Shown piece after piece: positions 1 through 3,978 of a stretch of 11,337 nucleotides of DNA. The notes under the pieces were generated by a model. It saw only the letters and a list, made by a program, of their open reading frames with translations. It made no database searches and was not told where the DNA came from. The DNA is taken from contig CADAGG010000027.1 in NCBI GenBank assembly GCA_902787415.1, forward strand, positions 1 through 11,337, written 5' to 3'. The DNA is from a methanogenic archaeon (lineage in GTDB: Archaea; Thermoplasmatota; Thermoplasmata; Methanomassiliicoccales; Methanomethylophilaceae). A program made the translations under genes and the position numbers. How positions within the stretch are numbered: the first letter of the stretch is position 1; each line of letters starts with the position of its first letter.

Positions 1-552
1 TTCAAGAACGTCGAGGCCAAGATCAACTTCATCAGGCAGGCGGGCTTCCAGCCGGTCATCCCCTCGGGATACCGCTTCCCCCCGAGCCGCTTCGAGATCG
101 GCGACAACCCCGAGAAGTACAAGGCTCTGGCACTTACGCTCAAGGCCTACACCGACACCTACTATCAGTTCGCCGAGAGCATCGTTGTGTTCCTCGACAT
201 CGTGAACACGCTGTTCGTCAACAAGACGGTGGAGATCAACGACAAGGGATTCCCGCAGGCACGTATGGACCGCAGCGGCACCATCATCCCCATCTCCAAG
301 TTCTCCTCCGGAGAGAGGCAGATCCTCATCATGTTCTACCTGCTCCTGTTCAAGGCCGGGACCGATTCCCTGGTCATCATGGACGAGCCCGAGGTCTCGC
401 TCCACGTATCGTGGCAGCAGCAGATCGGCAAGTTCGTGGGCGACGTCGCCCGCATAAGGAACCTGCAGGTCATCATATCCACCCACTCGCCCTCCATCAT
501 ACACGATGACTGGGACAAGACCGTGGAACTCGCCACCACCCGCAAAGACTGA
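1..552 (+). CDS. ABC/AAA-type ATPase, C-terminal part (5' end outside window); possible AriA-like subunit
   Basis: The frame is open from base 1, so the GTG at 187 is internal and the gene begins upstream; 183 residues are visible. In order they carry an ABC-type signature SSGERQ (residues 102-107), a Walker B block LVIMDEPEVSLH with D128-E129, and a switch histidine in ISTHSP (H162). This is the C-terminal lobe of the SMC/OLD-like AAA_15/AAA_21 ATPases, in which the signature lies far from the Walker A motif, here out of view. The DUF4435 gene starts 7 bases after the stop, so the two are probably translated together. Known relatives pairing such an ATPase with a Toprim/DUF4435 protein include PARIS AriA; OLD and Gabija systems are looser parallels. 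The ATPase would act as phage sensor and scaffold for the nuclease. The family call is firm; the defence role is inferred from the pairing. Confidence 0.85.
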   Translation, partial: FKNVEAKINFIRQAGFQPVIPSGYRFPPSRFEIGDNPEKYKALALTLKAYTDTYYQFAESIVVFLDIVNTLFVNKTVEINDKGFPQARMDRSGTIIPISKFSSGERQILIMFYLLLFKAGTDSLVIMDEPEVSLHVSWQQQIGKFVGDVARIRNLQVIISTHSPSIIHDDWDKTVELATTRKD

Positions 553-559
553 TGTTAAC

Positions 560-1411
560 ATGTTAGACCAGCTCACCTCATCTGACATCGCCAACGAAGT
601 CTCCATGATGCGTTCGGTGTTCAAGGGCACCGTGCTCATAGTGGAGGGAGTAAGCGACAGCCGTCTCTACGGGAAGTTCACCGACAGGGAGAACGTCAGG
701 ATCATGATCGCCCATTCCAAGAACAACGTGATGCAGGCGGTCAGCATGCTCCGCGACAGGAGGAAGGACAACGCGGTCCTGGGGATCATCGACCGCGACA
801 TGGACGCCCTCCTGGGCAAGAAACGTTCCCCGCCCCTCTTCCAGACCGATAAACGCGACCTCGAATCCACGATACTCGCCTCCCCCGCGCTGGAGGCGGT
901 GATCGCGGAGTACGGCGACACCGATAAGGTCCGCGCCTTCGAGGACCGCTACGGCCCCCTCAGGGACTGCCTGGCCCGGGCGGCCAGCCCGGTGGGCCTC
1001 CTCATGTTCGTCTCCTACAAGAAGGGGATGAACCTGAGCTTCAAGGACCTCGACTTCACATTCTTCGTCAACCCCCATACCCTCAAAACGGACCTCCCGA
1101 AGCTGGTGGCCCACGTGTACTCCGTGTCCATGGGGCAGAGGTATCAGCGGGCCGCGGTGGTCGACATGGTCGCCGAGCTGATGAACGACTTCGGAGAGTC
1201 GTGGGACGTCACCCGCGGACACGATGCCGTCACCGTCCTGAAGCTCGGGCTGAGGGCCGGCCTCGGATCCTACAACGCCAAGGGCCTCACCGACGGGGAG
1301 CTGGGCGGTGCCCTGCGTCTCGCGTATTCGAGAGGTGCGTTCGAATCCACCGTCCTCTATCGCGCCACTTGGGACTGGTGCCGGGAGAACGGGCTGAAAC
1401 TCTGGTCTTGA
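560..1411 (+). CDS. DUF4435 (Toprim-like) protein, possible AriB-like nuclease
   Basis: A 283-residue protein. The open frame extends back to an ATG at 506, but that start lies inside the ATPase gene; the ATG at 560, just after the ATPase stop, is preferred and gives a first strand with the expected motif. Toprim-like features are the strand VLIVEGVSD with E29, the strand GIIDRDMD with D78, D80 and D82, and a TDKRDLEST segment (residues 97-104) typical of DUF4435. A GHD motif (220-222) lies in the helical C-terminal part. In PARIS, the DUF4435 protein AriB is held by the ATPase AriA and, when released by a phage trigger, cuts host tRNA. The Toprim acids are present, so activity is plausible. 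No strong Shine-Dalgarno is visible; the 7-base gap suggests coupling to the ATPase. Domain call good, nuclease function inferred. Confidence 0.82.
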   Translation: MLDQLTSSDIANEVSMMRSVFKGTVLIVEGVSDSRLYGKFTDRENVRIMIAHSKNNVMQAVSMLRDRRKDNAVLGIIDRDMDALLGKKRSPPLFQTDKRDLESTILASPALEAVIAEYGDTDKVRAFEDRYGPLRDCLARAASPVGLLMFVSYKKGMNLSFKDLDFTFFVNPHTLKTDLPKLVAHVYSVSMGQRYQRAAVVDMVAELMNDFGESWDVTRGHDAVTVLKLGLRAGLGSYNAKGLTDGELGGALRLAYSRGAFESTVLYRATWDWCRENGLKLWS

Positions 1412-1817: not shown

Positions 1818-2183
1818 ATGAACAACGGATGGCTCTGGGTCATTGCGGGAGGAATCGTTGAGGCGGTGTACACCACCTTCATGGGACTGGCCGACGGAAT
1901 GACCGATCTCCTCTATTCCGCGCTCGGATTCGGGCTCAGCATCGTGGGCACCCTGCTCCTAAACCAGGGACTCAAGGCAGGACTCGCCATGGGCGCGAGC
2001 TATGCCGTATGGGTCGGGGTCGGAGTGGCCGGGGCCGCCGTGGCGGATATTTTGGTATTCTCCAACGGACTGAGCATCCTCGGATACTTCTTCGTTGCAC
2101 TCGTCCTCGGAGGAGTGGTCGGTCTGAACCTCAAGACCGATAAGAAAGCGGAGGAACTCCGCGAAGCTCTCGAAGAGAACTAA
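1818..2183 (+). CDS. Small multidrug resistance (SMR) family transporter, subunit 2
   Basis: A 121-residue SMR protein with four predicted helices. It keeps the helix 1 glutamate (E15 in GGIVEAVYT) and the helix 3 pattern SYAVWVGVGVAGAA. It starts 2 bases after the stop of subunit 1, with GAAG just upstream and part of the ribosome-binding context inside the first gene. Loops 1 and 3 lack lysine and arginine, while loop 2 has K52 and the C-terminal tail from residue 105 has several lysines, predicting N-in/C-in topology. That is opposite to subunit 1 and fits an antiparallel heterodimer. Its charged tail (KTDKKAEELREALEEN) extends beyond the usual SMR end. It ends with the only TAA stop among the complete genes. 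Confidence 0.92.
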   Translation: MNNGWLWVIAGGIVEAVYTTFMGLADGMTDLLYSALGFGLSIVGTLLLNQGLKAGLAMGASYAVWVGVGVAGAAVADILVFSNGLSILGYFFVALVLGGVVGLNLKTDKKAEELREALEEN

Positions 2184-2395: not shown

Positions 2396-2650
2396 TCACT
2401 CGAGCTCGCTGAAATCTTCTTTCTTTGTGCCGGAGGCCGTCTCCATGATGGCCTGCACCTTGCGGTCGCTCTCGTCGAGGATCTTCCTGCAGTGCTCGCG
2501 GAGGGCGACGGCGTTCTCGTACACCTTGAGGCTCTCATCCAGATCGAGGTTGCCTCCCTCCAGCTTCTTCACGAGCTCCTCGAGCATGCTCATGCTCTGC
2601 TCGAAGCTCAGTTTCTCTACGTCAATCTTTCCGGTCTCGGTGTCGCTCAT
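2396..2650 (-). CDS. xseB: Exodeoxyribonuclease VII small subunit
   Basis: An 84-residue protein, the usual XseB length (about 60-90). It shows the family pattern LSFEQSMSMLEELVKKLEGG then LDLDESLKVYENAVALREHC, predicted as two long amphipathic helices that wrap the coiled-coil arm of XseA. Several XseB copies bind one XseA to form exonuclease VII, which degrades single-stranded DNA from both ends to acid-soluble oligonucleotides in repair and recombination. The start ATG overlaps the xseA stop in an ATGA (2647-2650), so the subunits are translationally coupled. The C-terminal tail (TASGTKKEDFSELE) is acidic and probably disordered. The call is secure. ExoVII is a bacterial-type enzyme, so its presence here suggests ancient acquisition from bacteria. 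Confidence 0.95.
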   Translation of the reverse strand: MSDTETGKIDVEKLSFEQSMSMLEELVKKLEGGNLDLDESLKVYENAVALREHCRKILDESDRKVQAIMETASGTKKEDFSELE

Positions 2651-3978
2651 TGCAATTCCTCCTTCTCGACTATGTCTGCGAGGGCCCTTCCGTCCCTCAT
2701 CCTTACTGTGATCCTCGAACCCACGGCCAATCCTTTGACCGAGGTCACCGCCTGTCCGTCAGGACCGGCCACGAAGCTGTATCCCCTGTCCAGGACCTTG
2801 TACGGGCTCAGCGCGTCCAGCCTGGCCGCCAGGGTCTGCTCTTTGTAATCCTTGGTGGTGAGGATGGCCTTCATGCCGGGCTCGATCCTCCCGAACACCC
2901 TGTCCGACTGGTTGCGTTTGTTGGCGACCATCGCTTTCAGGGCGGGTTCCGGACGGCTCTCAACCGACAGGAACCTCTTGTGCATCTCGGAGACGGTGTC
3001 CTTCACCGCCGAGGATGCCCTGGAGGACAGGTCGTCCAGTTTCATTCCCAGGTATTCCACCTTCTCCTGCGCCCTGGCCGGAGATAGCTTGCCGTCCACC
3101 GCCACGAACCTGCCCCTCATGTGCTCTATGACCGAGGATAACGCTTTGTTCATCCTGACGGTGAGGTCGCTGAACTGGCGGAGGATCTCCGACTTGTCCC
3201 TGACCGCGAACTGGGCCGCGGCGGTCGGGGTGGGAGCGCGCTTGTCGGCCACGAAGTCCGCCAGCGTGAAATCGGTCTCGTGACCCACCGATGATATGAC
3301 AGGTACCTTGGAGGCGGCGATGGCCCTGACCACGGGCTCCTCGTTGAACGCCCACAGGTCCTCCAGGGAACCTCCTCCGCGTCCCACGATGATGACGTCC
3401 ACGCCCTCCCTGTTGAGCAGCTCGATGCCCGCCACGATGGACTTGGCCGCACCCTCGCCCTGCACCTGCGCCGGCGCGAGGAGGATGTCCGCGGGGAAGA
3501 GCCTCTTGGTGGTCGTAAGTATATCATGAATGACGGCTCCCGTGGGGGAGGTGACCACGCCGATGGTCTTGGGATACTGAGGGATGGGGCGCTTGCGGGC
3601 GCTCTCGAACAGCCCCTCGGCCTCCAGCTTCTTCTTCAGCGCCTCGTACTTCAGGTATAGGTCGCCGATGCCCGAGCGCTTCATCGATTCGACTATGAAC
3701 TGGTAGGAACCGCGCTCCACGTACATGTCGAGATGCCCGTAGGCCTCGATCTTCTGGGAGTCGCCCGGTTCGAAGTCTATGCGGGATCTGGCACTTTTGA
3801 ACATGACAGCTCTGATCTCGCTCCCGGCGTCCTTGATGGTGAAGTAGGAATGGCCGGAGGTGTACAGTTTGAAATTGGAGATCTCACCGATTACCCAAAT
3901 ATCCTTCAGCCCTGGGGTGGAGCCGAAAAGCTCCTTCACGCGGGTGTTCAGTTCGGTTACGGTGACTCTCTCCGACAT
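2647..3978 (-). CDS. xseA: Exodeoxyribonuclease VII large subunit
   Basis: 443 residues, the normal XseA size. The N-terminal OB-fold (about 1-100) contains IWVIGEISNFKLYTSGHSYF (27-46). The catalytic region carries IGVVTSPTGAVIHDIL (139-154), VGRGGGSLEDLWAFNE (198-213) and SSVGHETDFTLADFVADKRA (229-248) followed by PTPTAAA; these are the conserved ExoVII blocks, including the GHETD and DKRAPTPT metal/catalytic motifs. Residues 255-400 are a long charged helical arm where XseB binds, and the C-terminus has the DRGYSFV and RDGRALADI elements. On the minus strand a purine stretch GGGAG lies 4-8 bases before the ATG. It is first in a two-gene operon with xseB and diverges from the thioesterase gene across 131 bases. 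All catalytic motifs are intact, so an active enzyme is expected. Confidence 0.97.
   Translation of the reverse strand: MSERVTVTELNTRVKELFGSTPGLKDIWVIGEISNFKLYTSGHSYFTIKDAGSEIRAVMFKSARSRIDFEPGDSQKIEAYGHLDMYVERGSYQFIVESMKRSGIGDLYLKYEALKKKLEAEGLFESARKRPIPQYPKTIGVVTSPTGAVIHDILTTTKRLFPADILLAPAQVQGEGAAKSIVAGIELLNREGVDVIIVGRGGGSLEDLWAFNEEPVVRAIAASKVPVISSVGHETDFTLADFVADKRAPTPTAAAQFAVRDKSEILRQFSDLTVRMNKALSSVIEHMRGRFVAVDGKLSPARAQEKVEYLGMKLDDLSSRASSAVKDTVSEMHKRFLSVESRPEPALKAMVANKRNQSDRVFGRIEPGMKAILTTKDYKEQTLAARLDALSPYKVLDRGYSFVAGPDGQAVTSVKGLAVGSRITVRMRDGRALADIVEKEELQ

Follow-up and report, generated by a model that had tools for sequence, protein, structure and literature searches.

The question raised by this locus is whether a pair of genes resembling the ATPase (AriA) and nuclease (AriB) of the PARIS defence system is, in a family of methanogenic gut archaea, an accessory system that comes and goes or a permanent part of the chromosome, and what it might do there. 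The pair lies in an 11,337-nucleotide stretch of DNA from a member of the Methanomethylophilaceae (the window, meaning the whole stretch analysed), which forms the left end of contig G000:C27. The initial annotation, made from the sequence before any database search, had described a C-terminal ABC-ATPase lobe followed 7 bases later by a DUF4435 gene with Toprim-like acids and a GHD motif, and had likened the two to AriA and AriB. Both genes are present, separated by bases 553-559:

1 to 552, plus strand: ariA-like ABC/AAA ATPase (183 C-terminal aa; frame open at the contig edge), with signature SSGERQ, Walker B DEPE and H-loop STHSP
560 to 1411, plus strand: ariB-like DUF4435/Toprim nuclease, 283 aa, with E29, D33, D78, D80, D82 and RGHD at residues 219-222

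Because the window starts at the contig edge, the 5' half of ariA lies off this contig. An earlier ATG at 506, which an open reading frame caller had taken as the start of ariB, is unsupported by the aligned starts of its relatives. On balance we favour the view that the pair is a PARIS-type module resident in the chromosome and passed on vertically, composed of a compact AriA plus AriB, which may work through a sequestered tRNA-cutting nuclease like that of E. coli.

The two window proteins are almost certainly homologues of AriA and AriB. PADLOC assigned them to AriA (7.9e-26) and AriB (7.5e-14), a profile search of the PDB matched the ATPase to AriA (2.4e-32), and structure comparison returned AriA and AriB as the best matches of the respective proteins, all of which supports the kinship first proposed; against the PDB by sequence alone, AriB gave no meaningful match. 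The PARIS detection rule, as given in an excerpt from PMC9122126, calls for an AAA_15 (at least 32 bits) or AAA_21 (at least 27 bits) gene adjacent to a DUF4435 gene (at least 27 bits), and the window genes, 7 bp apart, score above these thresholds and the Pfam cut-offs (AAA_21, 62.1 bits; AAA_15, 57.3; DUF4435, 34.5). The missing half of the ATPase, which the initial annotation had proposed to recover, was supplied by relatives. In G012, a single-contig genome whose AriB is 86% identical to that of the window, the complete ATPase is 347 aa long (L003/L032), has both lobes and the P-loop NGFGKS, and stops 7 bp before ariB. Neither of two outcomes named beforehand as contrary to a PARIS identity occurred: the AAA_15-type N-terminal lobe is present in relatives, and Pfam and structure comparison both place the second protein within DUF4435/Toprim. 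The ATPase is thus closest to AriA, with N and C lobes complete, and the effector closest to AriB, with its Toprim metal site intact.

The residues on which ATP binding and metal coordination would depend are retained across the family. In all 55 aligned family AriB sequences, the window included, E29, D33, D78, D80, D82, D97, D100 and R219-G-H-D222 are invariant. The acids and the GHD motif lie where the initial annotation had placed them. In the 53-54 aligned AriA sequences the N, G35 and K of the P-loop, the S, G and E of the signature and the DEPE motif are likewise invariant, and the remaining ATPase motif positions vary in no more than three rows (in G025, Gln replaces the H-loop His). 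These counts cover 55 AriB and 53-54 AriA sequences, the other 36 AriB-bearing genomes lying outside them; G063 (L084) was left out of the conservation and synteny counts and kept in alignment A1 and as an outgroup, G035 (L085), which has no full pair, was left out, and G049 (L077) was left out of the AriA counts. The net charge of AriA (lysine plus arginine minus acids; median -16) has little bearing on any surface patch, and we draw no conclusion from it.

A six-frame search with the AriB alignment detected AriB in 92 of 102 Methanomethylophilaceae genomes, including 42 of the 45 that are at least 90% complete, and in 13 of 14 genera. The match was single in 89 of the 92 genomes and lay in complementary pieces across two contigs in the other three (G035, G107, G140). 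In an even sample of the phylum, AriB occurred in 25 of 292 genomes, all 25 of them Methanomethylophilaceae; G063, from another family of the same order, also carries it. The protein is annotated as hypothetical in Candidatus Methanoplasma termitum (Mpt1_c06840) and archaeon BRNA1 (TALC_01029). In the same 102 genomes xseA was found in 96, Cas1 in 27 and N6_Mtase in 52, the last figure including many weak matches that are probably non-restriction methylases, for which reason Cas1 is the preferred control. PF14491 matched in 60 of these genomes, 59 over the cut-off, in a search that at first missed the window itself and hence provides no census.

Few of the ten AriB absences are clear losses. 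The contigs of four genomes (G102, G109, G141, G022) stop within ariA at the same locus, that of G130 stops in the gene preceding ariA, and G058 and G127 lack both flank markers, xseA and trkH, so that absence there says nothing. True losses were found in G014, G036 and G045, all of genus g2, in which trkH, a TPR gene, xseB and xseA lie on one contig. G014 keeps an intact AriA of 346 aa (PADLOC AriA, 2.3e-29), with ariB missing before xseB and elsewhere in the genome, and G036 and G045 show a clean empty site from which both genes are gone. A further g2 genome, G027, has an AriA shortened to 265 aa adjoining an intact AriB. An AriB standing without AriA did not turn up in any of 54 pairs that were fetched, and the AriA examination left out 36 AriB-bearing genomes of the total of 92. 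In these few genomes of g2, the stepwise loss fits an order in which the toxin may go while its keeper stays.

The position of the pair is also stable. In 52 of 54 family loci xseA follows 206-1552 bp downstream and is encoded on the opposite strand (of the two exceptions, one contig ends and the other shows no match in its remaining 1.7 kb). On the upstream side, 44 of the 54 loci have trkH inside 4 kb; at four others the contig stops first, and at six the searched range holds no trkH. Pfam confirmed trkA, trkH and, with a weak match, the TPR gene in G012. With gene starts picked by script, ariA overlaps ariB in 35 of the 53 full pairs. The trees agree with vertical descent: AriA and AriB trees of 26 genomes both recovered 7 of 7 multi-member genera, compared with 5 of 7 for elongation factor 2 (EF-2), and AriA and AriB distances each correlated with those of EF-2 (r 0.64 each; none of 2000 permutations as high). 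EF-2 had been sought in 30 genomes, three of which lacked a full copy and one of which had it split over two contigs; since it splits genera g1 and g4, it is an imperfect proxy for the species. The EF-2 tree (L174-L200) mixes some g1 and g4 members with good support, unlike AriA and AriB, possibly through transfer or paralogy of EF-2. With bacterial outsiders added, the family formed one clade (support 99/89), with G063 as sister (98/98), followed by Clostridia and Nitrospirota.

Selection on the pair was estimated from the ratio of nonsynonymous to synonymous substitution rates (dN/dS) in 14 close pairs of genomes, genes with no call or more than one being left blank and saturated dS giving no ratio. 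Where estimable, ariA and ariB gave 0.05-0.19 (zero in one near-identical pair), as against 0.03-0.22 for xseA and 0.05-0.45 for trkH, so that both genes of the pair are under purifying selection. Between the window and G012 the values were 0.11 for ariA and 0.06 for ariB versus 0.03 for xseA, and the likeness to neighbours is qualified by protein identity, AriB being 86% identical and xseA 96%. The middle region of AriA showed a mild rise (0.126, versus 0.085 and 0.077 for the lobes), and at the coarse level of pairwise dN/dS there was no sign of diversifying selection.

Presence is thus neither patchy nor tied to changing loci, with AriB in 92 of 102 genomes plus four whose contigs end in ariA, and xseA downstream in 52 of 54 loci. 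We are confident that the pair is a resident, inherited locus, and its fixation in the common ancestor of the Methanomethylophilaceae, between the TPR gene and xseB, is the best explanation of these data. An ordinary accessory PARIS made common in the family by repeated transfer is very improbable. Such a history would suit a system that an excerpt from PMC9122126 describes from P4-like satellites and in 5.2% of genomes from diverse clades, and one genome (G059) does hold a fused AriAB elsewhere; it runs against the single clade, the single locus, the genus-level congruence and the failure, at the sensitivity used, to find an encoded relative among viral contigs or phage records. The PARIS likeness of the initial annotation, perhaps with another trigger, therefore stands as homology, but the ordinary accessory system for defence that it implied does not. 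The pair being near-universal, syntenic and vertically inherited in the family, the housekeeping-like fixation without variation of locus that it had listed as a contrary outcome has largely come true.

Searches for mobile copies turned up none that is close. None of 13 pattern matches in viral contigs was confirmed as an encoded relative at the sensitivity used, phage records gave no match, and plasmids gave three distant matches (23-27% identity). The fused AriAB of G059 (646 aa; L287:7979-9919, G059:C2; PADLOC PDLC02982, 2e-73) has the same two domains as the family pair but differs in being a single polypeptide, found in one family genome by the PF14491 search, at another locus and on a very long branch of the AriB tree. 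By eye it lies near chaperone-like genes, and the two-gene core pair is also present in that genome. The nearest outsiders are five Clostridia loci (one from Cellulosilyticum ruminicola), 32-36% identical to AriB, and in each of eleven outsider loci (L161-L166, L168-L172) AriA lies directly upstream of AriB. By Pfam, the pair is followed in four Clostridia loci by NUDIX and HD genes (L162, L163, L164, L166) and in four by a GH94 gene (L162, L163, L165, L166), with a chemotaxis receptor there in L164, and is preceded in three by a GNAT gene (L162-L164). This repeated setting means that a repeated locus is not unique to archaea, and fixation of the locus may also have occurred in Clostridia. A guess from gene lengths that the Clostridia relatives sit in a ctsR-mcsA-mcsB-clpC heat-shock operon was ruled out by Pfam, which identified the neighbours as GNAT, RDD, NUDIX, HD and GH94 genes. 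Upstream of the pair in one Clostridia genome (L163:3-2552) is a SWI2/SNF2-type helicase with matches to R-subunit domains of type I restriction enzymes.

These results bear on the main rival explanation, in which an ancestral PARIS pair has been domesticated as a regulator of stress or growth. It would act, for example, through tRNA cleavage and dormancy when the cell meets starvation, DNA damage or envelope stress, and defence against viruses would have ceased to be its chief role. The near-fixation, fixed locus and vertical descent across 13 of 14 genera all favour this explanation, as do selection within the range of xseA and trkH, the failure to find close mobile copies, the contrast with Cas1 (27 of 102 genomes) and the five Clostridia loci, with their repeated setting beside ordinary metabolic genes. 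However, the pair can be lost, partly in G014 and wholly in G036 and G045, its ATPase and Toprim motif residues are kept, and its neighbourhood points to no specific pathway, xseBA being convergent. We regard domestication as possible but doubtful, and hold just as tentatively its fuller form, in which the family ancestor captured a PARIS module once, its sensor was shortened, and it now serves as a permanent cellular tRNA-cutting switch, either a stress response or a guard of a core process. A mainly antiviral purpose is slightly favoured by our analysis.

How the resident module would act can be modelled on its E. coli counterpart, in which a hexamer of AriA holds up to three AriB and frees them on a viral trigger, the AriB dimer then cutting tRNA (PMC11455837); an excerpt from PMC12409363 likewise describes the AriA hexamer and released AriB dimer. 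By homology, the archaeal AriA oligomer would bind ATP and sequester AriB until it was made to let go by a trigger, which is probably a protein of viral origin or one associated with stress. Freed AriB would dimerise and nick a small number of host tRNAs in the anticodon stem, the likeliest being Lys-UUU, Thr-UGU and Asn-GUU, whereupon translation would halt and an infected cell would release no virus. Given its core status, the module probably answers to something shared by the viruses of the family, or to a guarded host process, rather than to the anti-restriction protein of one phage group. We consider it probable that the family pair follows this sequestered-nuclease logic.

The proposed tRNA targets rest on a motif. 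According to PMC12409363, the tRNAs most affected by AriB in E. coli are Lys-UUU and Thr-UGU, with Asn-GUU and Thr-CGU cut to a lesser extent; the nick falls near U36AAUC|A41, and cutting also requires distal tRNA contacts. Of 44 tRNA matches in G012, 43 were read (one of these, from L235, is doubtful), and the exact U36AAUCA41 occurs in three, namely Lys-UUU, Thr-UGU and Asn-GUU; targets are therefore available, which is not proof of cutting. At least three copies of the motif were found in 33 of 61 family genomes, as against 1 of 40 from the rest of the order. This enrichment is confounded by shared ancestry, and genomes that have lost AriB or the pair keep the motif, so it is not evidence of coevolution. 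In an unlikely alternative, the Toprim protein is not a tRNase but a nuclease like OLD or RNase M5, with DNA or rRNA as its substrate and perhaps a role in repair alongside exonuclease VII. OLD-family nucleases, GajA, Septu PtuA and retron effectors do belong to the same superfamilies by their ATPase and/or Toprim folds, and remote kinship is possible, but all were weaker matches than AriA and AriB.

Several observations weigh against an antiviral, E. coli-like module. A sensor in a defence system could be expected to vary and to be replaced over time, but dN/dS stays in the range of the neighbours. The three genomes that have lost AriB or the pair retain the tRNA motif, leaving motif and nuclease without visible coevolution. 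No constant defence neighbour was noticed, the neighbours not having been scanned systematically. Finally, the shortened part between the lobes means that trigger sensing or AriB binding may differ: about 206 residues separate the lobes in E. coli AriA and about 114 in the family profile (PDB profile search), and the distance from P-loop to signature is 228-234 residues in 52 of 53 family AriA (149 in G027), compared with 267-339 in ten outsiders.

The remaining genes at this end of the window form the downstream flank:

1483 to 1815 and 1818 to 2183, plus strand: two small multidrug resistance (SMR) transporter genes (Pfam), between ariB and xseB
2396 to 2650, minus strand: xseB (small subunit of exonuclease VII), a conserved flank convergent with the pair
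2647 to 3978, minus strand: xseA (exonuclease VII large subunit; Pfam), conserved flank

The tandem SMR pair also separates ariB from xseB in G012, where it was identified by eye, and a gap of that size is missing from most relatives. An Rfam scan of the window gave no match. On the xseA side in G012 (L032:15006-19849), Pfam identified CRISPR genes, Cas3-like and Cse1, and that genome has no Cas1 match.

Set beside the solved PARIS complexes (8ux9, 8v45-8v49), which we take to be of E. coli origin, the family pair has the same order of an ABC ATPase gene and an adjacent DUF4435 Toprim nuclease gene, and conserves the P-loop, signature, Walker B, H-loop and Toprim acids; it differs in the size of AriA, which is 464 aa in PARIS and 342-359 aa in 52 of 53 family members (265 in G027). 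Unlike PARIS of P4-like satellites, it descends vertically at a syntenic locus in an archaeal family. In N. meningitidis, PARIS is among four system families and defence content follows phylogeny, according to an excerpt from PMC9090908, by the authors of DefenseFinder; that case falls within one bacterial species, whereas the family pair spans 13 of 14 genera. Among the top-listed matches in the open-licence PMC literature, we found no description of a core PARIS locus carried throughout an archaeal family.

Defence systems are known to be gained and lost quickly, and near-universal chromosomal inheritance is unusual for one. A pair that is spread through a whole family, locked to one locus and intact in its catalytic residues would represent either a rare permanent form of archaeal innate immunity or an immune toxin recruited for housekeeping, which, if true, would make a domesticated immune toxin part of core archaeal physiology. 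The named carriers, Methanoplasma termitum and archaeon BRNA1, make both readings testable; the family also has an isolate in Methanomethylophilus alvi, and genus g2, with its stepwise loss, offers a natural experiment. For livestock methanogens, the pair suggests which tRNAs might be cut.
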